Assembly: GCA_016794525.1 (NCBI GenBank)
Contig: JAEUJY010000151.1
Location: forward strand, 1 to 60,285
Length of the DNA stretch: 60,285 nt
Origin: Myxococcales bacterium
GTDB lineage: Bacteria > Myxococcota_A > Polyangia > Haliangiales > Haliangiaceae
Direction of reading: 5' to 3'
Shown: piece by piece, positions 36,289 through 48,036 of the stretch
Numbering within the stretch: position 1 is the stretch's first letter
How the letters are laid out: every line of letters begins with the position of its first letter
The notes under the pieces: model-generated
The model's input: the letters and a program-made list of their open reading frames with translations, nothing else
Told to the model about the DNA's origin: nothing
Database searches by the model: none
Position numbers and translations under genes: made by a program

Positions 36289-38577
<2,289 letters not shown>

Positions 38578-38661
38578 GCGGATGACCGTACCGCGTTCAC
38601 CTGGGCATGTCGCCGCCGCCGCGGGTTGTCGCGCGGTGCCCCCCAGCGGTACGTTGTCACC

Positions 38662-38892
38662 ATGCAGGTCGAGATCCGTTACTGCTCGATGTGAGGCTAC
38701 CTGGCCAAGGCGACCCGTGCGGCCGCCCAGCTCAAGCGCGCGCTCGACGTCGACGCCACCCTCACCAAGGGCAGCGGCGGCGAGTTCACCATCAGCGTCG
38801 ACGGCGTCGTCGTCTACGACAAGACGCTCACCGGCGAGTTCCCCACCGACCAGCAGGCGGTGCGGGTGGTGCGGGACGCGATGACGCGATGA
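38662..38892 (+). CDS. SelW/Rdx-family selenoprotein with in-frame UGA (Sec11)
   Basis: ATG 38662 opens a frame of 76 codons ending at TGA 38890-38892, interrupted only by a TGA at 38692-38694. Read as selenocysteine (U), residues 5-13 are IRYCSMUGY, matching the redox motif of SelW (EYCGAUGY). The rest keeps the family pattern: [38 protein letters not shown]. Rdx proteins have a thioredoxin-like fold and a CxxU redox site. A bacterial SECIS hairpin just after the UGA is plausible (CTGG/CCAG, GCC/GGC pairs) but not proven. No Sec machinery lies in this window. A normal gene finder would miss or truncate it. Confidence 0.8.
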
Positions 38893-38937: not shown

Positions 38938-39522
38938 TCACTTCGGGATGACGACGGTGTCGATCACGTGGATGACGCCGTTGGCCGCCTCGATGTCGGC
39001 CTTGATGACCGTCGCGCCGTCGATCTTCACGCCGCTCGACGTGTCGATGGTCAGCTCCGCGCCGTTGACCGTCTTGGCGGTCTTGAGCCCGGCGACGTCC
39101 TTGGCCATCACCTTGCCCGGCACCACGTGGTAGGTCAGCACCGCGGTGAGCTTGGCCTTGTCGGCCAGGAGCGCGTCGAGATCGGCCTTCGGGATCTTGG
39201 CGAACGCCTCGTCGGTCGGCGCGAAGACGGTGAACGGCCCCGGGCCGCGCAACGTCTCGACCAGGCCGGCGGCCTCGATCGCGGCGGCCAGGGTCTTGAA
39301 CGTGCCAGCCTCGGCGGCGACGTCGAGGATGCCCTTGGCGGCTGGCGTCGGGGCCGGGGTCGGCGCGGGCGGCGTCGGGGCTGGGGTGGGCGTGGGCGCC
39401 GGGGCCGGCGCGGCGGGCTTGGCGGCCTCGGTCGGCTTGTCCTCCGCCTTCTTCTTGCACGCGGTGAGGGTCGCGCCGCTGACGAGCAGCAACGCCATCG
39501 AGATCGTCGAGAACGAACGCAT
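38938..39522 (-). CDS. Fasciclin-domain lipoprotein
   Basis: A 194-residue surface protein: lipobox [11 protein letters not shown], a Pro/Thr/Ala-rich spacer (residues 35-70), then one FAS1 domain. It shows [37 protein letters not shown] (H1 region), YHVVPGKVM and [13 protein letters not shown] (H2). FAS1 domains mediate adhesion or protein contacts. ATG 39522 is preferred because AAGGAG lies properly spaced before it; the ATG at 39528 touches that sequence. Confidence 0.88.
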
Positions 39523-39775
39523 GGGCATCTCCTTGGTGGCGCCTTCGACGCGCGCGCGCCCCGAGCGGTTACCAGGCGATCGTCGCGGGCGGCGGGCGCC
39601 GCGGGGCGGCTCGCCCCCAGCTCGGCCGGCCGCGGGGCCCGGATCGGGGGGCGCGGCCCCCGCTGGACTCGGATGCGTTCGGAGGCTGTGTTTCCCGTCG
39701 ATCTAGCCTACGCTGCCCGCGCCCGCGCCCGAGTTCGTCGCCGCGGGCATGTTCCCCGATACCGATGAGAGCCAC

Positions 39776-40222: not shown

Positions 40223-40243
40223 GTTGCGTTTCGGGCTGCGCGG

Positions 40244-40316
40244 TACCCACGGTGGGAGTCGAACCCGCCCTCCCCGGGGTGAAAAGCCGGGATCCTGACC
40301 GCTGGACGACGTGGGC
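40244..40316 (-). tRNA. tRNA-Glu(TTC)
   Basis: Acceptor GCCCACG/CGTGGGT, D arm GTCC/GGAT, anticodon loop CTTTTCA on a CCCGG-type stem, T loop TTCGACT, discriminator A. One C-A mismatch in the T stem. Last gene of the island, directly before the terminator hairpin. Confidence 0.85.
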
Positions 40317-40320
40317 GCAG

Positions 40321-40388
40321 TGCCGCCGGGCGGAATCGAACCGCCTCACCAGGCTTCGGAGACCCGGGTCGCATCCGTGCGCGGGGGC
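40321..40388 (-). tRNA. tRNA-Arg(CCG), short D arm
   Basis: 68 nt. Anticodon loop CTCCGAA on stem CGGGT/GCCTG, T arm GGCGG-TTCGATT-CCGCC. The acceptor GCCCCCG/CGGCGGC has one C-C mismatch, and the D arm is a mini-hairpin CGCA/TGCG with a 4-base loop. Function uncertain. Confidence 0.65.
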
Positions 40389-40402
40389 GTGACGTGACGT
40401 GG

Positions 40403-40475
40403 AGCCGACCGAGGGAGTCGAACCCTCCTCTCTCCCGTACCAGGGGAGCGTGTCCACCAGGAGCACCGGGTCGGC
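40403..40475 (-). tRNA. tRNA-Thr(GGT)
   Basis: Acceptor GCCGACC/GGTCGGC fully paired, anticodon stem CTCCC/GGGAG with loop CTGGTAC, T arm GAGGG-TTCGACT-CCCTC, discriminator T. Canonical U33. Confidence 0.85.
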
Positions 40476-40516
40476 GTGGTGTCGGGCGTGGACGGCGCAG
40501 GCCGTCCACCGTGTCG

Positions 40517-40588
40517 AGCGTCTGCCCGGAGTCGCACCGGGTTGAATGCGGGTTGCAATCGCATGCCTCGCTGATCGGCCACAGACGC
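40517..40588 (-). tRNA. tRNA-Cys(GCA)
   Basis: Acceptor GCGTCTG/CAGACGC paired, discriminator T as expected for Cys, anticodon loop TTGCAAC. The T loop is TGCGACT (G55 instead of U55). Confidence 0.8.
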
Positions 40589-40602
40589 AGAGATCGTGAT
40601 CG

Positions 40603-40673
40603 TGGACTCGGGGGGACTCGAACCCCCATCGCCGCCGTGCGAGGACAGCATCCTGCCTTTGAAAGACGAGCCC
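40603..40673 (-). tRNA. tRNA-Ala(CGC)
   Basis: The acceptor GGGCTCG/CGAGTCC contains the G3-U70 pair that marks alanine tRNAs. Anticodon loop CTCGCAC, normal T loop TTCGAGT. The D arm pairs poorly. Confidence 0.75.
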
Positions 40674-40686
40674 GAGATCGAAGCAG

Positions 40687-40760
40687 CGGCCCTGAAGGGA
40701 ATCGAACCCTCCTAGATACTCATAGACAGTGAGCCAACGTCGCCAGACGTACCCAGGGCC
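40687..40760 (-). tRNA. tRNA-Asp(GTC)
   Basis: Acceptor GGCCCTG/CAGGGCC with discriminator G (Asp identity), anticodon stem GCTCA/TGAGT and loop CTGTCTA, T loop TTCGATT. Looks functional. Confidence 0.85.
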
Positions 40761-40794
40761 AGAAAAAGAGACGAACGACGGATCGTGACGATCG

Positions 40795-40865
40795 TGGAAC
40801 CGGAGGGAGTCGCACCCTCGTCGCTGGTCTGCCGAGCCAGCATTCTCCTGTTGAACTACGGCCCC
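40795..40865 (-). tRNA. tRNA-Ala(GGC), C33 and G55
   Basis: Acceptor GGGGCCG/CGGTTCC with G3-U70. Anticodon loop TCGGCAG has C33. T loop TGCGACT. Same body as the Val(CAC), Ala(TGC) and Val(GAC) genes next to it, so these arose by duplication with anticodon change. Confidence 0.75.
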
Positions 40866-40877
40866 GTATCTCAGTCG

Positions 40878-40948
40878 TCGGGCTGGAGGGAGTCGCACCC
40901 CCGCCGCTGGAATGTGAGACCAGCATTCTGCTGTTGAACTACAGCCCG
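40878..40948 (-). tRNA. tRNA-Val(CAC), G55
   Basis: Acceptor CGGGCTG/CAGCCCG perfect, D arm GTTC/GAAT, anticodon loop CTCACAT (U33), T loop TGCGACT. The anticodon stem has a T-T pair next to the loop. Confidence 0.78.
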
Positions 40949-40959
40949 TCTCTGCTCGT

Positions 40960-41030
40960 GGAAACCGAAGGGAGTCGCACCCTCATCACTGGTTTGCAAG
41001 ACCAGGGTTCTCCTGTTGAACTACGGCCCC
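40960..41030 (-). tRNA. tRNA-Ala(TGC), G55
   Basis: Acceptor GGGGCCG/CGGTTTC with G3-U70, anticodon stem CTGGT/ACCAG with loop CTTGCAA (U33), T loop TGCGACT. The discriminator reads C rather than the usual A. Confidence 0.78.
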
Positions 41031-41039
41031 GTATCGTCG

Positions 41040-41110
41040 TGAGGTCGGAAGGAATCGCACCTTCGTCGCCGGCATGTCGGACCGGCACTCTGCTCCTGAG
41101 CTACGACCCC
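41040..41110 (-). tRNA. tRNA-Val(GAC), C33 and G55
   Basis: Acceptor GGGGTCG/CGACCTC, D arm GCTC/GAGT, anticodon stem CCGGT/GCCGG with loop CCGACAT (C33), T loop TGCGATT, discriminator A. Confidence 0.78.
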
Positions 41111-41114
41111 GTCG

Positions 41115-41201
41115 CGGAAGGAGGGGGACTCGAACCCCCAACGCCGGTTCTACGGCGCACGCAGTTAGCACCTGCGCTCCTCGTCCTGCCGGACTCCTTC
41201 C
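41115..41201 (-). tRNA. tRNA-Ser(GCT)
   Basis: 87 nt class II tRNA: acceptor GGAAGGA/TCCTTCC, anticodon stem CGCAG/CTGCG with loop GTGCTAA, long variable arm GCGCCG/CCGGCG, T loop TTCGAGT, discriminator G. First of three Ser genes in a row. Confidence 0.85.
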
Positions 41202-41217
41202 AAGAAAGCACGCGCGG

Positions 41218-41300
41218 CGGAGGAGGGGGGAGTCGAACCCCCAGACCATGGCTGATCACGATTTTCGGGACCGTTGCCCTCACCGATAGGCAGCTCCTCC
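41218..41300 (-). tRNA. tRNA-Ser(CGA), C33
   Basis: 83 nt class II: acceptor GGAGGAG/CTCCTCC, anticodon stem ACGGT/ATCGT, loop CCCGAAA (C33), long variable arm, T loop TTCGACT, discriminator G. Confidence 0.8.
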
Positions 41301-41337
41301 AGAGACGGCGCGGGCGCGCCGGATGCGGTCGTCACAG

Positions 41338-41428
41338 CGAAGGGAGAGGGAGTCGAACCCGCAAGGCACCTCGCGGTGCTCACGCTGCTTTCTAGGCAGG
41401 CGCCGTCGCCACGTCGGCTTGTCCCTTC
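41338..41428 (-). tRNA. tRNA-Ser(AGA)
   Basis: 91 nt class II: acceptor GAAGGGA/TCCCTTC, loop CTAGAAA giving anticodon AGA, long variable arm GCACC/GGTGC, discriminator G. A34 outside Arg(ACG) is rare in bacteria. Confidence 0.8.
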
Positions 41429-41522
41429 AGTCGAAGCGAGGGCGCGGCCCCCCGCCCGGGCGGCCGCGGCCGACGGTGCATCATCCGTCGACCGGGCCGA
41501 CCCTCATCCCACCGTCGCCCGT

Positions 41523-42074
41523 TCACGCTGCCTCCGGATCGGCGTCGATCTCGCCGGTCCAGTACAGGTAGTCACGCCACGCGTCGGGCACCGAGCGCGT
41601 GCTCACCCGGATCGTCACCGCCGGCACCCAGGTCGGCCGCACCGGCTGCGCGCGCAGCTTGAGGCCGGCCTCGCTCGGCGTCCGGTTGCCCTTGGCGCCG
41701 TTGCACGGGTAGCAGCAGGTGACGATGTTCTCCCACGTGGTGCGGCCACCGCGGGCGCGCGGGATCACGTGGTCGTAGGTGAGCTCCGCCAGCGTGCACC
41801 GGACGTTGCAGTACTGGCAGCGGTAGCCGTCACGCGCGTAGATGTTCACGCGCGAGAACTTGACGGGCTTGGCGTGCCGACGGAACGCGCGCAGCAAGCG
41901 CACGACCGCCGGGGCCTTGATGACGAAGGAGACCGCCTTGATCTCGGCGTCGTACTCCTCGATGACCTCGACCTTGCCGAGGGTGAGCAGCGTGATCGCG
42001 CGCTGCCACGAGATGACCTTGATCGGCTCGAAGCCCTGCGACAAGAGCAGGGTCCGGTTCGCCACGTGACTCAT
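41523..42074 (-). CDS. HNH endonuclease inside the tRNA island
   Basis: A 183-residue HNH nuclease of the McrA-like, zinc-stabilised type common in myxobacteria. An N-terminal part (MSHVANRTLLLSQGFEPIKVISWQRAITLLTLGKVEVIEEY) precedes the nuclease: CQYC, YDHVIPRARGG (catalytic His), NIVTCCYPCN with the second CxxC. ATG 42074 has AAAGGA about 10 bases upstream. It lies between Ser(AGA) and Leu(GAG) in the tRNA orientation. It could drive mobility of the tRNA block as a homing-type nuclease, but chromosomal HNH genes of this family also occur elsewhere, so this is open. Confidence 0.85.
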   Translation of the reverse strand: MSHVANRTLLLSQGFEPIKVISWQRAITLLTLGKVEVIEEYDAEIKAVSFVIKAPAVVRLLRAFRRHAKPVKFSRVNIYARDGYRCQYCNVRCTLAELTYDHVIPRARGGRTTWENIVTCCYPCNGAKGNRTPSEAGLKLRAQPVRPTWVPAVTIRVSTRSVPDAWRDYLYWTGEIDADPEAA

Positions 42075-42160
42075 TGCGGTCGTTTCCTTTCGCCGGAGTT
42101 CGAGACAGGGCGCGGGCCGGCCGCCGCGCTCCATCGGCCCACACCGTGTGGGCAAGTTCG

Positions 42161-42234
42161 TGTCGCCGAGAGGATTCGAACCTCCACTGGGTGACTTCTC
42201 GAGCCACCGACTCTGCCAGTTGGTCTACGGCGAC
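42161..42234 (-). tRNA. tRNA-Leu(GAG)-like, short variable loop, C33
   Basis: Acceptor GTCGCCG/CGGCGAC, anticodon stem GTGGC/GTCAC with loop TCGAGAA (C33), T loop TTCGAAT. The variable loop is only about 5 nt, although bacterial Leu tRNAs normally have a long arm. Confidence 0.7.
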
Positions 42235-42252
42235 GTGACGTGATCGTGATCG

Positions 42253-42326
42253 TGTCCCCGGCGGGATTCGAACCCGCGCTGCGCGAGGTTTGAGCTCGCC
42301 GACTCTGCCGGTTGGTCTACGGGGGC
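42253..42326 (-). tRNA. tRNA-Leu(CAA)-like, short variable loop
   Basis: Anticodon stem GCGAG/CTCGC with loop CTCAAAC, T arm GCGGG-TTCGAAT-CCCGC. The acceptor GCCCCCG/CGGGGAC has one C-A mismatch. Class I variable loop despite a Leu anticodon. Confidence 0.72.
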
Positions 42327-42330
42327 GTCG

Positions 42331-42407
42331 TGTCCTCGGTGAGATTCGAACTCACACTGCCCAGGTTCTGAGGCTGGTGACTCCTGCCAAGGTTGGTCTA
42401 CGAGGAC
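42331..42407 (-). tRNA. tRNA-Leu(CAG)-like, short variable loop
   Basis: Acceptor GTCCTCG/CGAGGAC perfect, enlarged D loop, anticodon loop CTCAGAA, T arm GTGAG-TTCGAAT-CTCAC, discriminator A. Class I variable loop as in its two neighbours. Confidence 0.75.
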
Positions 42408-42425
42408 GAAAAGGGCCTGGCGGCG

Positions 42426-42553
42426 CCACGCACCGGATCGCACGTGCAATCGCGATCCCCAACCGCGCGCTCGGTGATCCTCCTCCTGCGGCCCGCGGGT
42501 CGGGGGACGACCCGCGGGGCGAAGAACGGACGAGGCGCCGATCCGGTGCGTGG
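42426..42553 (-). ncRNA. Candidate structured RNA 1, closed by 15-bp stem
   Basis: CCACGCACCGGATCG (42426-42440) pairs perfectly with CGATCCGGTGCGTGG (42539-42553). Inside, CCGCGGGTCG/CGACCCGCGG forms a second strong hairpin, flanked on the minus strand by TCGCCC and GGGCCGCAG, the core of the repeated element found inside nearby tRNAs. With a Ro60 gene 2.4 kb away, a Y-RNA-like role is possible. Confidence 0.5.
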
Positions 42554-42570
42554 AGCCAGGAAAACGTAGC

Positions 42571-42705
42571 TTCTGATGACGCGGCGGGCTTCCAGCTACA
42601 CTCGCGGCAGACGGCCACGTGCTCGATAACCCTCGCTCACCGGCCCGCCGACGGTCGCCCGTCGGCGCGCGACCTGGACGAGGACGTCCGCGCACGCCAT
42701 CAGAA
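42571..42705 (-). ncRNA. Candidate structured RNA 2, closed by 8-bp stem
   Basis: TTCTGATG (42571-42578) pairs with CATCAGAA (42698-42705), with further pairing inward. The minus strand inside carries GGGCCG followed by GAGGGTTATCG, again the repeated core. It directly precedes Pro(CGG) at 42708. No T arm or tRNA shape is visible. Confidence 0.4.
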
Positions 42706-42707
42706 AG

Positions 42708-42779
42708 TCAGGGTGGCAGGACTTGCACCTGCAGCCACTCGGTCCCGAACCGAGCAATCTACTATTGAAATACACCCTG
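42708..42779 (-). tRNA. tRNA-Pro(CGG), G55
   Basis: Acceptor CAGGGTG/CACCCTG, anticodon stem CTCGG/CCGAG with loop TTCGGGA (U33), T loop TGCAAGT, discriminator A. Weak D arm. Confidence 0.8.
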
Positions 42780-42781
42780 GG

Positions 42782-42855
42782 AGTGATCGACGGGACTCGC
42801 ACCCGCTAGGACGAGGGTCACGGCCTCGCGCCTCGACGACTTCGGCCTCGATCAC
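42782..42855 (-). tRNA. tRNA-His(GTG)-like, C33 and G55
   Basis: Acceptor GTGATCG/CGATCAC perfect, anticodon stem CGAGG/CCTCG with loop CCGTGAC (C33), T loop TGCGAGT. The His-specific extra G-1 and C73 are not seen (discriminator T). Confidence 0.7.
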
Positions 42856-42857
42856 GG

Positions 42858-42928
42858 TCCGCCCGGGAGGAATCGCACCTCCATCACTCGGTTATCGGCC
42901 AAGCGCTCTGCTGTTGAGCTACGGGTGG
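42858..42928 (-). tRNA. tRNA-Ile(GAT), C33 and G55
   Basis: D arm GCTC/GAGC, anticodon stem CTTGG/CCGAG with loop CCGATAA (C33), T loop TGCGATT. The acceptor CCACCCG/CGGGCGG has one A-C mismatch. Confidence 0.75.
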
Positions 42929-42995
42929 GAAAGGCGCGCCGTCCGCCCGCGGGACGAGCCGGTGGTCCGGCCCGCGGGCGGCGGTTGGCGCGTTG

Positions 42996-43069
42996 TAGGG
43001 GTGGTCGGAATTGCACCGACGGCCTCATGGTCCCGGACCATGCGTTCTGGCTGCTAGAACTACACCCCT
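42996..43069 (-). tRNA. tRNA-Pro(CGG), second copy, C33 and G55
   Basis: Acceptor AGGGGTG/CACCCCT perfect, D arm GTTC/GAAC, anticodon stem CATGG/CCATG with loop TCCGGGA (C33), T loop TGCAATT. Confidence 0.78.
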
Positions 43070-43080
43070 GGAAGCGTGCG

Positions 43081-43213
43081 CGCAGATGACCGGATTCGAA
43101 CCGGCGGCCACTGGCTTGGAAGGCTGTAACCATCTCGCTGCGGCCCACGGCGGACCGCGGGCGAGGATCGTGAGACGGGTTTTTACAGTGCTCTACCGCT
43201 GAGCTACATCTGC
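43081..43213 (-). tRNA. tRNA-Gly(TCC) interrupted by 61-nt insert
   Basis: Acceptor GCAGATG/CATCTGC, D arm GCTC/GAGC, T loop TTCGAAT. After the third base of the anticodon stem (CTG) a 61-nt insert occupies 43125-43185. Removing it restores CTG-GC, which pairs perfectly with GCCAG around loop CTTCCAA. The insert starts and ends with complementary bases and contains CCGTCTC/GAGATGG. Confidence 0.75.
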
Positions 43214-43242
43214 GTGGCGGTGCCCCGGCGGGCGCCGCGTCG

Positions 43243-43315
43243 TAGGGGTGGCCGGAATCGCACCGACGGCCTCACGGTCCCCGACCGTGCGTTCTCACTA
43301 CTGAACTACACCCCT
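43243..43315 (-). tRNA. tRNA-Pro(GGG), C33 and G55
   Basis: Acceptor AGGGGTG/CACCCCT, anticodon stem CACGG/CCGTG with loop TCGGGGA (C33), T loop TGCGATT. Nearly the same body as the Pro(CGG) gene at 42996. Confidence 0.8.
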
Positions 43316-43325
43316 GAAGAAGTCG

Positions 43326-43451
43326 TGCAGGTGGCCGGACTCGAACCGGCATCTGATTGATTAAGAGTCAATAACCATCCAGCAGCGGCCCGCCTCGCGA
43401 CGGGCGAGGGACGCGAGACGATGATCTGCTCTACCGTTGAGCTACACCCGC
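43326..43451 (-). tRNA. tRNA-Lys(CTT) interrupted by about 53-nt insert
   Basis: Acceptor GCGGGTG/CACCTGC, D arm GCTC/GAGC, anticodon loop CTCTTAA, T arm GCCGG-TTCGAGT-CCGGC. The insert at 43371-43423 lies between the D arm and the anticodon arm; joining GAT to TGA gives a six-pair stem with TCAATC. A second, uninterrupted Lys(CTT) lies at 47447. Confidence 0.75.
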
Positions 43452-43465
43452 GAAGGAAGCATGCG

Positions 43466-43586
43466 TACAGGCGGCTGGAGTCGAACCAGCGTCACTTGAT
43501 CCCACATCAAGAACCATCTCCCAGCGGCCCGGTGACGGGCGAGGGATCGCGAGACGGAAAGTGTCCTGCCGTTAGACGACGCCTGC
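43466..43586 (-). tRNA. tRNA-like gene interrupted by about 50-nt insert, anticodon unclear
   Basis: Acceptor GCAGGCG/CGCCTGT, D arm GTCT/GGAC, T arm GCTGG-TTCGACT-CCAGC. The anticodon stem CTTGA/TCAAG encloses loop TGTGGGA, which reads TGG (Pro) with an abnormal G33; GTG (His) would need a shifted loop. The insert (43509-43558) follows CTT, which is repeated at its other end. Confidence 0.6.
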
Positions 43587-43610
43587 GTGAGGCCGGCGGA
43601 GCCGGCGCGG

Positions 43611-43697
43611 TCGGGGTGATTGGAGTCGAACCAATGAGACCGGTAACCATCCATGTGCGGCCCGTGGCCGGGCGAGGAGGTACAGATGGGCACCCCG
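43611..43697 (-). ncRNA. tRNA-like minihelix with embedded repeat element
   Basis: Acceptor CGGGGTG (43691-43697) pairs with CACCCCG (43612-43618), and the T arm ATTGG-TTCGACT-CCAAT is intact. Only about 55 nt lie between them, mostly the CTCGCCCG...CGGGCCGC...GGTTACCG element. No room is left for normal D and anticodon arms, so it cannot decode. Confidence 0.55.
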
Positions 43698-43702
43698 AGA
43701 AG

Positions 43703-43772
43703 TCGCAGCGGAGGGAGTCGAGCCCTCCTCGAAGCGGATATGAGCCGCTCGTCCTCGCCCGAGGTCGCTGCG
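43703..43772 (-). tRNA. tRNA-Met/Ile2(CAT)
   Basis: Acceptor CGCAGCG/CGCTGCG, anticodon stem AGCGG/CCGCT with loop CTCATAT. C1-G72 is paired, so it is not a typical initiator; Met or Ile2 cannot be separated by eye. T loop CTCGACT (C54), small D loop. Confidence 0.75.
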
Positions 43773-43822
43773 TGGCCCGACGCGTGGCGCGCCGGGGCGT
43801 GTCGTGCGTGTCGTGCGTGTCG

Positions 43823-43892
43823 TGCCACCGGAAGGACTCGAACCCTCGCCAGCGACGTTCGTAGCGTCGTGTCCCATCCTCGGGACGGTGGC
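43823..43892 (-). tRNA. tRNA-Arg(ACG)
   Basis: Acceptor GCCACCG/CGGTGGC, D arm TCCC/GGGA, anticodon stem CGACG/CGTCG with loop CTACGAA, T loop TTCGAGT. Canonical U33; A34 is normal for this Arg isoacceptor. Confidence 0.85.
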
Positions 43893-43910
43893 CTGTCGTG
43901 CGCGTGTTGG

Positions 43911-43976
43911 CACACCGCCAGGGAATCGAGGCTCTGCGTCCGAGGGTGACGCGGAGGCCCGAGCTGGCGTCGATGC
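43911..43976 (-). pseudogene. Degenerate tRNA, Arg(CCT)-like
   Basis: The 3' acceptor strand matches that of the Trp gene next to it, and an anticodon-like arm GCGTC/GACGC holds loop ACCCTCG (anticodon CCT, C33). The T stem does not pair (AGAGC against CCCTG) and the acceptor is irregular. Probably a decayed copy; the 5' boundary is approximate. Confidence 0.4.
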
Positions 43977-43986
43977 GTCGCGGTCG

Positions 43987-44057
43987 CACACCGCCAGGGA
44001 ATCGAACCCTGCGTCGTGGGTTTTGGAGGCCCAGCCCGGCGCCAGCCGGTGCAGTGC
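43987..44057 (-). tRNA. tRNA-Trp(CCA)
   Basis: Acceptor GCACTGC/GCGGTGT with discriminator G (Trp identity), D arm CCGG/CCGG, anticodon loop CTCCAAA, T arm GCAGGG-TTCGATT-CCCTG. U33 present; one C-A pair next to the loop. Confidence 0.8.
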
Positions 44058-44093
44058 ATGGACGTCGCGCGCCGTCGCCGGCTGCGCGCGTGG

Positions 44094-44163
44094 TGCCACC
44101 GGGAGGACTCGAACCTCCGTCATCGACGTTCGCCACGTCGTGTTCCATCCGTGGAACGGGGGC
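44094..44163 (-). tRNA. tRNA-Arg(GCG)-like, G33
   Basis: Same body as Arg(ACG) at 43823: D arm TTCC/GGAA, anticodon stem CGACG/CGTCG, but loop TGGCGAA gives anticodon GCG with G33. The acceptor GCCCCCG/CGGTGGC has one mismatch. GCG is not normally used in bacteria. Confidence 0.65.
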
Positions 44164-44204
44164 AGGTGTACGCGGCCGCCTGACGGCCGGAGGTACGGGT
44201 TGCG

Positions 44205-44422
44205 GGCGAGTCGCCACCGCGAGCGGTGGCGGGGTCTCGACGTCGGTGGCGTCCGCACCGACGAGGTCAGGCTCGTCGGCCGTTGACACGCGCCGGCCAC
44301 CTTCGAGGAGGTGCGCCCGGCGCTTCGCTGACTCGGTCGCCCGAGTGTCGCTACCTTAGGCCCGTTATAGTTACGGTAACCGACGTCTACCGGCCCGAAC
44401 GATCGGCGTCGCCGCCGATCAT
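44205..44422 (-). ncRNA. Structured region with a 23S rRNA helix 69-71 copy
   Basis: On the minus strand, 44348-44374 matches 26 of 27 bases of the very conserved 23S rRNA domain IV segment (GTAACTATAACGG then CCTAAGGTAGCGA). CGGTAGACGTCGG just upstream also resembles 23S CGGTAAACGGCGG. Strong hairpins surround it: GATCGGCG/CGCCGATC (44401-44420), CCGACGAG/CTCGTCGG (44258-44279), CGCCACCG/CGGTGGCG (44212-44231). No open frame or tRNA is present. Whether it is one RNA is not known. Confidence 0.5.
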
Positions 44423-44424
44423 CG

Positions 44425-44497
44425 TGCGCCTGGGGGGAATCGAACCCTCCATATCCGGTTTGAGGGACCGGGGGACTGACCATTGTCCGACAAGCGC
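44425..44497 (-). tRNA. tRNA-Glu(CTC), C33
   Basis: Acceptor GCGCTTG/CAGGCGC, D arm GGAC/GTCC, anticodon stem CCGGT/ACCGG with loop CCCTCAA (C33), T loop TTCGATT. One mismatch in the T stem. Confidence 0.8.
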
Positions 44498-44510
44498 AGA
44501 AAAAACTTCG

Positions 44511-44693
44511 CCTCTTCAGGTTCACGCCGCGCAACCCGCCCGACCGCCCCGCGCCACCCGGGAGGTGTTCGCCTCCTCAGGTTCACGCCGCGCAACCCGC
44601 CCGACCGCCCCGCGCCACCCGTGAGGTGTTCGCCTCCTCAGGTTCACGCCGCGCAACCCGCCCGACCGCCCCGCGCCACCCGTGAGGTGTGCG
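44511..44693. repeat. Three tandem 61-base repeats
   Basis: Unit starts lie at 44511, 44572 and 44633, each reading CCTCNTCAGGTTCACGCC... through CCACCCGNGAGGTGT. The copies differ at only a few bases; the third runs on into TGCGGACAGCCGTC, which leads to the double hairpin at 44716. A diverged single copy precedes the double hairpin at 47195 as well. Confidence 0.85.
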
Positions 44694-44715
44694 GACAGCC
44701 GTCTCGGAAGGAGGA

Positions 44716-44765
44716 CCCGGCGGGGGCATGACCCCGCCGGGGGAAGGTTTGGCGACAAACCTTCC
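44716..44765. repeat. Abutting double hairpin, copy 2
   Basis: CCCGGCGGGG-GCATGA-CCCCGCCGGG (44716-44741) is directly followed by GGAAGGTTT-GGCGAC-AAACCTTCC (44742-44765). Stem bases differ from the other copies but remain paired, while loop GGCGAC is constant. It lies just past the 3' end of tRNA-Asn in the minus direction. Confidence 0.8.
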
Positions 44766-44775
44766 AGTAGTTCAG

Positions 44776-44847
44776 AGGGCCCGGCGGGACTCGAACCCGC
44801 ACCCAACCGGTTAACAACCGGCCGCTCGACCGTTGAGCTTCGAACCC
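44776..44847 (-). tRNA. tRNA-Asn(GTT)
   Basis: Acceptor GGGTTCG/CGGGCCC with two G-U pairs, D arm GCTC/GAGC, anticodon stem GCCGG/CCGGT with loop TTGTTAA, T arm GCGGG-TTCGAGT-CCCGC. The discriminator reads T. Confidence 0.85.
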
Positions 44848-44923
44848 AGATCGCCGGTGGAGGCTGGGACATCCACCGGCGCATGCGTGTTAGGCGGCCC
44901 CGCGCGGGCCCGATCGTCGCCGA

Positions 44924-46561
44924 TCAGGCGCGCGCGAAGTCGCTGATGACCGCCGGCGTCGCCGTGTCGAAACCGACCACGTCGAGCATGCCGGCATCGT
45001 TCGGGTCAGCGATGCTGAACCCGTTCGAGGTCATCCCCACCACCACCACCTTCGCCGCGATGCCACGCGCCTGACGGTACGCGCGGATCGCCTGCGCCGG
45101 GTGCACGCTCCCGGCCCACGTCTCGCTGTCCGTGTAGATGACGAAGGTATCGACATCCACGCGGTTGCGCTCGGCCCACAGCATGGGCAGCGCGCAGTCG
45201 GTGCCACCGAAGGGCAGCCCGTCGACGGCCTTGCAGACGTCGTCGAGCCGCTGCCGCGGCGAGATCGCGAGCGGGCGCAGGCCCGACTCGCCGCCGCCGT
45301 ACTGGCCGCCGTAGCCACCGGCCGCGGCGGTGAACGCCACGAACTGGTGGTCGCGCTCGGTGGCCGCGGTGATCAGCGCCATCGCGGCGCTGCCGATCCG
45401 CGGCGTCAGGCCCGGCACCCCGGCGATCGTGCCCGAGGTCATCGAGCCCGACACGTCGAGGGCGAGCAGCGTGCGCTTGCCGCTCGGCTCGACCGCCTTG
45501 AACGCCTGGTAGAACGCGCCGTCGAGGGCATCGACGACCGCCGCCACCGGTGCCCAGGTGCCGCCGCCGCGCGCGCCGTGACCGCTCTTGTACGTGGTCA
45601 GGGCCGCCAGCACCGCGACCGGATGGACGCGCGCCTTCTTCAGGCGCGCCTCGTCACCCAGCCGCGCCACCACGGTCTTGGCCGCGTCGCTGCCGGCCTT
45701 GAGCAGGCCGACGCGCGTCATCGTCGCGAGGTTGCGGATCATGGCCGTCATCGGCATGTCGGCCAGGAGCGCGTCCCAGATCTCGGCGAAGGTCAGCCAC
45801 GTGGTCGGGACCGCCTCGCGCGGGATGCGGTGCTCGCGCACCAGCGCCGCCGCGCGCGCGACCTCGTCGACGCGCTTGAGCTCGTCGGCCGCGCTCAAGA
45901 GCTGCAGCGCCTGGTCGGCCTTGGCCTCGTCGGTCAGCGCGCCGCTGGTCACCCAGGCGAACAGCCGATCGTGCGAGGGCGAGGCCGCGCGCGGGTGCGC
46001 GAGGCGCAGGAGGTCACGGGTCGACCAGCCGTCGCGGCTGCCGTACTTCACGAGCTGGTAGGCCAGATCGCGGGCCGGCTTGTCGTTGAACCAGGCGGCG
46101 ACCGCCTTGCGCATGCCGCGACCCCAGCCGCCGAAGCCCTGCGCGTACTCGGCGAAGTGCATCAGCTGGGTGCCGGTGCGGCACACGGCCGGCAGCGCGG
46201 CGTAGGCGGCCTTGCGGGTCGCCTCGTCGCCGAGCTTCGCGCACATCGCGAGCGCGAAGATCGCCGGGTCGGTCTTGGGCGCGCGGCCCTCGGTGGCGAC
46301 CGCGACGATCGTGTTGACCACGCGGACGCCGTCCTCGGCGATGCAGCGCTGCACCGCGGCGGCGTTCTCGACGGTGAGCTTGGCCTCCTTGATGTAGTAG
46401 GTGCCGCCCTCGCTGCCGAGGATCAAGAAGCGATCGAGCCGCACCCAGTCGGTGACGGCCCAGGTGAAGCCGCCGGCCGAGTTCGCGACCTGGTTGGTAC
46501 CGGGGATCGCCTGCGCCTGCGGAGTGGTGAGGGTCGAGTAGTGCTTGGTGAACTTGAACAT
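44924..46561 (-). CDS. Ro60-like TROVE domain protein with vWA domain
   Basis: This 545-residue protein is a bacterial Ro60 (Rsr-like) homologue. The TROVE module (residues about 20-370) is a ring of helical repeats (RFLILGSEGGTYYIKEAKLTVENA is the hallmark). The vWA domain (about 375-545) has an intact MIDAS: DVSGSM, a Thr in GGTDCALPMLW, and Asp in YTDSETWAG. Ro60 proteins bind misfolded RNAs and Y RNAs and guide RNA quality control. ATG 46561 has GGAGG eight bases upstream. It lies inside the island between Thr(CGT) and Asn(GTT), in the tRNA orientation, with a 58-base gap to the tRNA upstream. Confidence 0.92.
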   Translation of the reverse strand: MFKFTKHYSTLTTPQAQAIPGTNQVANSAGGFTWAVTDWVRLDRFLILGSEGGTYYIKEAKLTVENAAAVQRCIAEDGVRVVNTIVAVATEGRAPKTDPAIFALAMCAKLGDEATRKAAYAALPAVCRTGTQLMHFAEYAQGFGGWGRGMRKAVAAWFNDKPARDLAYQLVKYGSRDGWSTRDLLRLAHPRAASPSHDRLFAWVTSGALTDEAKADQALQLLSAADELKRVDEVARAAALVREHRIPREAVPTTWLTFAEIWDALLADMPMTAMIRNLATMTRVGLLKAGSDAAKTVVARLGDEARLKKARVHPVAVLAALTTYKSGHGARGGGTWAPVAAVVDALDGAFYQAFKAVEPSGKRTLLALDVSGSMTSGTIAGVPGLTPRIGSAAMALITAATERDHQFVAFTAAAGGYGGQYGGGESGLRPLAISPRQRLDDVCKAVDGLPFGGTDCALPMLWAERNRVDVDTFVIYTDSETWAGSVHPAQAIRAYRQARGIAAKVVVVGMTSNGFSIADPNDAGMLDVVGFDTATPAVISDFARA

Positions 46562-46619
46562 GGCGAACCTCCGGCCCGGGGAATGCGGGCAGTGAGTACG
46601 GTTGCGAGACAACGGTGAG

Positions 46620-46692
46620 AGCCAGACGGGAGAATCGAACTCCGGACATCCGCTTACGGGGCGGCGCCTCGACCCATCGAGGGACGACTGGC
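46620..46692 (-). tRNA. tRNA-Thr(CGT), C33
   Basis: D arm CCTC/GAGG, anticodon arm CCGC/GCGG with loop CCCGTAA (C33), T loop TTCGATT, discriminator T as in Thr(GGT). The acceptor GCCAGTC/GTCTGGC has one T-T mismatch. Confidence 0.75.
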
Positions 46693-46699
46693 GAGAGAC

Positions 46700-46945
46700 A
46701 CAGGCGAAACCCGTGGGCGAGGATCGGCACCGAGGGGGGTACTTTTCGACGGTAACCCTCACGCCTTCGGCCCACCGGCGGCGCAAACGTGGGTCCACGG
46801 GCGAGGTGACGACCGAGGGAGGGTCGTTATCGGCGATAGCCCTCGGTCAGCGGCCCGCGGAGCTGCGCGTCGCCGGGCGAGGTCGTGGCCGAGGGGGATC
46901 GTTCGTAGCGGTAACCCTCGGCCGGCGGCCCGGCGATGTCGCGTT
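46700..46945 (-). repeat. Three tandem structured elements (75-83 nt period)
   Basis: On the minus strand the pattern GGGCCG, 3-5 bases, then GAGGGTTACCG (or GGGCTATCG), then CCCTCGG or similar, then ACCTCGCCCG is repeated three times. Each unit can form hairpin CCGAGGG/CCCTCGG and hairpin CGCCCG/CGGGC. The same GGGCCGC core occurs in the inserts inside tRNA genes at 43125, 43371 and 43509. Confidence 0.7.
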
Positions 46946-46947
46946 GG

Positions 46948-47018
46948 AGTGGCTCGCGGGATTTGCACCCGCACGATCAGGGTGGAGGCCTGAGCTGCTG
47001 CTGTTACATCAGAGCCAC
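46948..47018 (-). tRNA. tRNA-Gly(TCC)-like, C33 and G55
   Basis: Acceptor GTGGCTC/GAGCCAC perfect, anticodon stem TCAGG/CCTGA with loop CCTCCAC (C33), T loop TGCAAAT. The D arm does not pair well; discriminator T. Confidence 0.7.
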
Positions 47019-47194
47019 GAGTCCGTTCGTATGACGCACCGTCTCGCCCTTCACGCTCACCGGTCACGATCACCGTCGAGGTGCACGGTGCACGGTTCAG
47101 GTTCACGGTTCCCGGTTCAGGTTCCCGTGCGAGCACCCGCCCGGTCGGCGCGCGCCACCCGGGAGGTGTGCGGACAGCCGTCCTGGAGGGGAGG

Positions 47195-47244
47195 CTCGGC
47201 GGGGGCATGACCCCGCCGAGGGGAGGCTCGGCGACGAGCCTCCC
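47195..47244. repeat. Abutting double hairpin, copy 3
   Basis: CTCGGCGGGG-GCATGA-CCCCGCCGAG (47195-47220) is directly followed by GGGAGGCTC-GGCGAC-GAGCCTCCC (47221-47244). It lies just past the 3' end of tRNA-Gly(GCC) in the minus direction, as copy 2 does for tRNA-Asn. Confidence 0.8.
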
Positions 47245-47253
47245 TGAAACGCG

Positions 47254-47324
47254 AGCAGATGGCGGGAATCGAACCCGCGATCCCGGTCTGGCGAACCGGT
47301 GTGTCACCACAACACTTCACCTGC
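47254..47324 (-). tRNA. tRNA-Gly(GCC), C33
   Basis: Acceptor GCAGGTG/CATCTGC, D arm GTGT/ACAC, anticodon stem CCGGT/ACCGG with loop TCGCCAG (C33), T arm GCGGG-TTCGATT-CCCGC. Confidence 0.82.
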
Positions 47325-47446
47325 GGCGGTGGGCCCGTGCGTCTGGAAGCGCGTGATCGGCGGATCACACACCTCGTGGAGCGCACGAGACACCTGACGA
47401 GTCATCGGGGCGGTCGGCGGACGTCGCGCCACGACACTCGCTAGCG

Positions 47447-47521
47447 TGAGCCGGGTGGGAATCGAACCCACGTCGGGACGGTTTAAGAAACCGCTGCAAA
47501 GCCAACGTTTGCTACCAGCTC
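47447..47521 (-). tRNA. tRNA-Lys(CTT), uninterrupted
   Basis: Acceptor GAGCTGG/CCGGCTC, D arm GCAAA/TTTGC, anticodon stem GCGGT/ACCGT with loop TTCTTAA (U33), T arm GTGGG-TTCGATT-CCCAC, discriminator A. All canonical positions are present. Confidence 0.88.
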
Positions 47522-47550
47522 GAGTACGGCATGCTTCTCCTCGGAAGCGG

Positions 47551-47623
47551 CCCCACTCTCTGGAATCGAACCAGAATCCTCCGGGTTTCGGCCGGCCGCG
47601 TAGACCACATACGCTAGAGTGGG
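47551..47623 (-). tRNA. tRNA-Phe(GAA), C33
   Basis: Acceptor CCCACTC/GAGTGGG, D arm GCGTA/TACGC, anticodon arm CCGG/CCGG with loop CCGAAAC (C33), T arm TCTGG-TTCGATT-CCAGA, discriminator G. Confidence 0.8.
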
Positions 47624-47826
47624 AGAGAGCCTCGGCGCCCCGCGATCGGGAATCGCGGCGACGCCGGGGATGAGCCTCGCGCGGATTACGGCCGCGCGAG
47701 CTCGTTTGCTGGGCGCCGTGCAAGGGCGCCCACGTCGTTCGTCTCTTCAGTTGTCAGGGATCGGCGTCGTCGGGGAGGCCGCGGGCACACCTCGGGCGTG
47801 ACCGCGTCCCGTCGAGGACGCAGCAG

Positions 47827-47899
47827 TACCGGACCCAGGAGTCGAACCTGGAGTTTTGCGGGTCAGAGCCGCCTGTCTTGCCGATTAGACGAGTCCGGT
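47827..47899 (-). tRNA. tRNA-Gln(CTG)
   Basis: Acceptor ACCGGAC/GTCCGGT, D arm GTCT/AGAC, anticodon arm GCGG/CCGC with loop CTCTGAC (U33), T arm CCAGG-TTCGACT-CCTGG, discriminator A. The 203 bases between it and Phe hold no recognisable feature. Confidence 0.85.
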
Positions 47900-47952
47900 A
47901 GACTCGATTGCTTGTGCGTGTCGCGAGGGCGAGAGGCCCTCAGATGCAGGCG

Positions 47953-48036
47953 TGGGACGTCCAGGAATCGAACCTGGCTGGTGTTGGACACATCGATTTT
48001 ACGGACCGCCTCGCCTCCATAGCGAGCTACCGTCCC
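47953..48036 (-). tRNA. tRNA-Tyr(GTA), C33
   Basis: 84 nt class II with long variable arm GTGT/ACAC, anticodon arm CGGT/ATCG with loop CCGTAAA (C33), T arm CCAGG-TTCGATT-CCTGG, discriminator A. The acceptor GGGACGG/ACGTCCC has one mismatch next to the D arm. First gene of the island. Confidence 0.78.

Follow-up and report, generated by a model that had tools for sequence, protein, structure and literature searches.

A probable SelW-like selenoprotein gene with an in-frame UGA codon in a Myxococcota genome

The window, a stretch of 60,285 nucleotides, very probably contains a real gene encoding a small selenoprotein of the SelW-like type (Rdx family), in which the UGA at positions 38692-38694 is read as selenocysteine (Sec). 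The SelW-like identity is supported by the protein family, the fold, a conserved TGA, a conserved hairpin and the machinery of the genome. The features of the gene and its direct neighbours are as follows.

38662-38892, + strand: selW-like selenoprotein gene, ATG at 38662, 76 residues and TGA stop at 38890-38892
38683-38694, + strand: CSMU redox motif (TGC TCG ATG TGA), from sequence and translation; C8 and the Sec/Cys column are invariant in a 28-row alignment with U read as C
38692-38694, + strand: in-frame TGA, predicted Sec codon, residue 11, from translation and homologue comparison
38709-38715, + strand: 5' arm of the bSECIS-like hairpin, comparative; A-C mismatch 38713/38723 in the window copy
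38716-38720, + strand: apical loop CGUGC, G at loop position 2, then U
38721-38727, + strand: 3' arm of the bSECIS-like hairpin, comparative
36289-38578, - strand: malic enzyme with phosphotransacetylase domain, divergent neighbour, participation not implied
38938-39528, - strand: fasciclin-domain protein, convergent neighbour, participation not implied

Reading frame, protein family and predicted fold

Translated with the standard code, the selW frame ends after residue 10; with UGA as Sec it ends after residue 76 (...DAMTR). An earlier note on this DNA had described a protein that "stops only if UGA is read as Sec". This wording is garbled, since both readings stop, but the CSMU motif encoded by TGC-TCG-ATG-TGA and the 76-residue Rdx-type product which it named were found in the sequence. 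The TGA occupies the second Cys position of the CxxC/CxxU redox motif. Past the TGA the frame has a GC3 of 0.97, and it shows the largest GC3-GC2 difference among the 11 filter-passing TGA-interrupted frames of the window. No promoter-like or terminator-like sites were found near the gene.

With C put for U the product matched the Rdx model PF10262 over residues 2-72 (E 4.1e-15, 56.2 bits, cut-off 22.6) and scored 45.2 bits on TIGR02174, above the cut-off of 34.2. The best NCBIfam match was NF041051 (SelTWH_Campy) with 62.9 bits. Because this score lies below the equivalog cut-off of 88, the product was not filed under that family. An AlphaFold2 model was calculated from a 9-row alignment headed by the window protein and reached a pLDDT of 95. 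Its elements follow the order strand-helix-strand-strand-strand-helix, and the CxxU site (C8 and U11) comes after the first strand (residues 3-8). A structure search with this model returned 22 PDB chains with E values up to 0.001; most were SelW-related proteins, and these were also the top matches (TM 0.86-0.89). The predicted fold is the thioredoxin-like fold of SelW/Rdx proteins.

The Ser-Met pair between Cys and Sec had been singled out as a departure from the usual Gly-x of SelW. The letters do differ, but they are nothing special: G006, a genome of the same genus, also has CSMU, and among the 27 UGA homologues described below the two residues before Sec are NS, QA, VV, VA, TA, NG, GA and others. 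Since both positions vary widely in the clade, Ser-Met was rejected as an anomaly.

In G006 selW has a malic enzyme gene and an Hsp70-like gene in its vicinity; the Hsp70-like gene is also found close to selW in G002, G003, G004 and G005. The window additionally carries a cluster of 27 tRNA genes on the - strand (40242-48036, ARAGORN) with an HNH endonuclease gene inside it (41523-42155). Similar clusters stand near selW in G006 (21 tRNAs, L070) and G005 (26 tRNAs, L072), and none was seen in the inspected stretches of G002 and G004.

The TGA codon and the hairpin among relatives

To compare the gene with its relatives, a search was made of 56 genomes, among them the own genome. A selW homologue was present in 28 of them, and all 28 were translated. 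The TGA is found at the same codon in 27; the single exception, G040, has Cys at this position and no SelB above the cut-off. The Pfam model matched in 29 genomes, the additional one being G016 with two partial matches near contig ends, which were left out of the alignments. The homologues continue beyond the codon, contrary to the refuting outcome named in the earlier note, in which all of them would end before it. When a contig scan for named relatives was started from the window protein alone, none was obtained; the closer 9-row alignment yielded 8 named loci, located in MAGs labelled Deltaproteobacteria, Myxococcales or Kofleriaceae. On this basis we regard the source of the window as a myxobacterium of Kofleriaceae type.

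A wider sample of the phylum gave an Rdx match in 104 of 235 genomes. By our own count the table of this sample holds 114 Rdx matches, of which 89 contain one TGA (at whatever position) and 25 are free of stops; this points to Sec as the usual form of SelW across Myxococcota. All 21 matches with at least 79 bits were free of stops, and the TGA-bearing matches all scored 68.3 bits or less. It looks as if Cys-type and Sec-type Rdx proteins were two separate subfamilies, although the lower scores may be an effect of the stop itself. In G176 two adjoining Rdx matches on contig C546 (11312-11757), one stop-free and one with a TGA, possibly represent a tandem Cys/Sec pair.

Cys-type Rdx genes exist in the phylum (the 25 stop-free matches), and the TGA of the window could have arisen in a gene of this type, either through an error in sequencing or assembly or through mutation to a pseudogene. 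However, neither an error nor a random change would turn up repeatedly at the same codon, as the TGA does in 27 of 28 homologues from separate assemblies, together with a conserved hairpin and the rule for loop codons given below. Pseudogene and error were rejected on the conserved TGA, and we give this explanation practically no weight compared with a genuine Sec codon.

A bSECIS prediction just past 38694 had been suggested as a further check. For this analysis 50 bases from each TGA of the 27 genes were aligned, which was possible without gaps. RNAalifold, run without a given structure, returned a single stem of columns 18-24 with 30-36, corresponding to 38709-38715 with 38721-38727. The conserved hairpin spans 38709-38727 and begins 15 nt past the TGA. 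Across the 27 genes 93.4% of the cells in the stem are paired, and changes on both sides occur in 4 of the 7 pairs. The covariation score was 0.330, compared with 0.100 ± 0.024 in shuffles, none of the 500 shuffles being as high; the covariation is found mostly at columns 21 and 33, both at the third position of codons that mostly encode Ala. When the 27 genes were compared with 500 synonymous recodings, the natural sequences kept 177 pairs instead of 140.0 ± 4.6 (maximum 155) and had a summed energy of -313 instead of -214 ± 13.6 kcal/mol.

The window copy itself is weak. Its stem consists of 2+4 bp around the A-C mismatch 38713/38723, while most homologues form 7 bp. As given in the available portion of its publication, a bSECIS model places the apical loop 16-37 nt after the UGA and asks for an upper stem of 4-16 bp, a minimum free energy of -7.5 or lower and a loop G followed by G/U (PMC13188914). 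The spacing in the window copy is 21 nt (38695-38715) and lies within that range; its energy of -7.3 (19 nt) or -8.3 kcal/mol (27 nt) falls on either side of the limit. Folded alone, the hairpin did not surpass shuffled sequences, and the 50-nt stretch folded worse than most of them (z +1.65). Support for the predicted hairpin of the window copy is therefore comparative and does not come from single-sequence folding. The mismatch is common to the window copy, G021 and G015, and G021 has SelB.

The apical loop shows a G at position 2 followed by G or U in all 27 genes, the window copy included. Where the loop codon encodes Arg it is CGT or CGG in 21 of 21 cases, compared with 42 of 138 Arg codons elsewhere in the same genes (Fisher P 3e-10), where CGC is the commonest; Ser is encoded by AGT in 5 of 5 loops and in 5 of 69 codons elsewhere (P 2e-5), these P values being too small as they stand because the sequences are related. 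The 27th loop codon is GGT for Gly. With the set thinned to 20 rows, the Arg preference persisted (14/14 in the loop, 32/102 elsewhere, P 6e-7, among sequences still to be read as related). The rule, Arg only by CGU/CGG and Ser only by AGU, offers a clean example from nature of a coding sequence in which a bSECIS prevails over codon preference.

Selenocysteine machinery and the search for SelB

The own genome comprises 9.8 Mb in 177 contigs and is an estimated 96.7% complete. From the UGA gene the earlier note had deduced that selA, selB, selC and selD should be present, and it had recommended a search for tRNA-Sec and SelB. Three of the four genes were identified. The tRNA-Sec gene (selC) lies on contig C60 (72.9 bits, cut-off 47) and was called tRNA-SeC with anticodon TCA by ARAGORN; SelA is encoded on contig C159 (536 bits, cut-off 267.9) and SelD on contig C137 (308 bits, cut-off 125). 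Sec machinery is thus largely present, and selB was not found in the assembly. The selD gene contains an in-frame TGA (L017:2416-2418, - strand) in a glycine-rich N-terminal segment (ARGGGU), so SelD of this genome is itself a predicted selenoprotein.

Among the 56 genomes SelB scored above the cut-off in 38, including 5 of 6 congeners. Divided by the presence of the UGA gene, these are 24 of 27 genomes with it and 14 of 29 others. Either SelB or a tRNA-Sec of at least 60 bits was found in 27 of 27 and 17 of 29 genomes, respectively. As the genomes are related, this co-occurrence is a support and not an independent test.

The tRNA also bears on the possibility that TGA stands for Trp, as in code 4, or is generally suppressed. 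Under such a code the frame is open as well. However, the same gene terminates in TGA, C60 encodes a TCA-anticodon tRNA that scores as tRNA-Sec, and homologues have the second Cys of CxxC at this position and not Trp. The Trp reading was rejected for these reasons, and its chance of being right, like that of general suppression, is minimal. Sec remains the preferred reading of the codon.

In the own assembly no SelB above the cut-off was detected by profile, and none with the protein or the DNA block of a congener. The best matches to the SelB model were EF-Tu (L008) and a second EF-Tu-like protein (L009), and both were rejected as SelB on account of these identities. The second protein is divergent, is present besides the ordinary EF-Tu and comprises 388 amino acids (contig C102, L009:1216-2382); its score on the EF-Tu equivalog model, 491.7 bits, lies below the cut-off of 522.4. 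G002, G005 and G006 share a conserved block of an acyl-CoA synthetase gene and selB, of which no orthologue was found in the own genome. An acyl-CoA synthetase on contig C42 was rejected as selB neighbour, as it is a different synthetase and is followed by other genes. A 19.5-kb stretch surrounding the selB gene of G006 served as a further query against the own genome. Contig C82 (237 kb) is syntenic to this region and matches its left-hand part to about 14.0 kb, after which other genes follow; the right-hand part had no strong match in the own genome. Since C82 continues with other genes rather than ending, a simple contig-end gap for selB is not shown.

Most likely, selB is unassembled or relocated. 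This explanation is favoured because, if SelB were lacking, the two Sec-type genes selD and selW would yield truncated products. If the lineage had instead lost selB recently, the UGA codons of selW and selD would now terminate translation and the gene would be a relic in early decay. The three kinds of search that failed to detect SelB, the lack of an orthologous acyl-CoA synthetase-selB block and a hairpin weaker than most are in line with such a loss. On the other hand, SelA, SelD and tRNA-Sec are intact, the frame past the TGA is open with its GC3 of 0.97, and G021 combines the same A-C mismatch with a SelB. Moreover, the assembly is incomplete (an estimated 96.7%), and G001 and G015 also gave no SelB match yet possess tRNA-Sec and the UGA gene. 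We consider a recent loss unlikely. Still less probable is that the UGA is decoded as Sec without canonical SelB, in which case another factor, for example the EF-Tu-like protein of C102, would carry Sec-tRNA to the hairpin.

Proposed function and relation to known selenoproteins

With an unassembled or relocated selB, expression of the gene would proceed as follows. A ribosome at UGA 38692-38694 would meet the hairpin 38709-38727. SelA and SelD would produce Sec-tRNA-Sec on the tRNA from C60, and SelB, bound to the hairpin and to Sec-tRNA-Sec, would insert Sec, after which translation would continue to the TGA at 38890. Here we infer both the actual insertion of Sec and a SelB outside the assembled sequence. 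The product is most likely a small thiol/selenol redox protein, either a thiol/selenol oxidoreductase or glutathione-linked. This redox function and any partners are deduced from a CxxU motif in a thioredoxin-like fold. For the SelW-like family an interaction with glutathione was found, and in the available part of that report the function is called unclear (PMC1088965).

Among relatives, structures have been solved for SelW-related proteins from Agrobacterium, Streptomyces, Pseudomonas and others. Cys-type bacterial Rdx structures (2fa8, 2obk, 2oka, 2ojl, 2p0g and 3dex) have a like fold with TM 0.86-0.89 and 27-35% identity by structure alignment; in 2fa8, 3dex and 2oka the motif CTQC is aligned to CSMU, with Cys in place of Sec. 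Mouse SelW (2npb) was matched by fold with a probability of 1.00, yet with TM 0.62 and 23% identity. It differs further in that the eukaryotic SECIS sits in the 3' UTR, as stated in the accessible text of PMC2398784.

Within the literature at hand, in part as excerpts, searches on selenoproteins with Myxococcota, Kofleriaceae, myxobacter and broader terms yielded nothing on this gene. A 2006 survey, in its available portion, lists 11 selenoproteins for Anaeromyxobacter dehalogenans, SelW-like not among them (PMC1794560). The present gene adds a well-evidenced selenoprotein for a Myxococcota lineage, of the sort that TGA-stopping gene callers would shorten. Knowledge of the Sec mechanism is unchanged by it.

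According to the accessible parts of the reports, SelW-like Sec proteins were in the literature by 2005 at the latest, and bacterial ones were described from the Sargasso Sea (PMC1088965) and GOS (427; PMC2398784) metagenomes. As far as those parts go, these proteins share with the window gene the Rdx/SelW relationship, CxxU, and an in-frame TGA, after which comes a bacterial SECIS whose small apical loop contains a G (PMC1088965, PMC2398784). They differ in origin, being from marine metagenomes (PMC1088965, PMC2398784), whereas the gene described here belongs to Myxococcota of Kofleriaceae type, has CSMU and carries one A-C mismatch in its hairpin. Thus, family, motif and mechanism were already known, and this member and its clade are additions.
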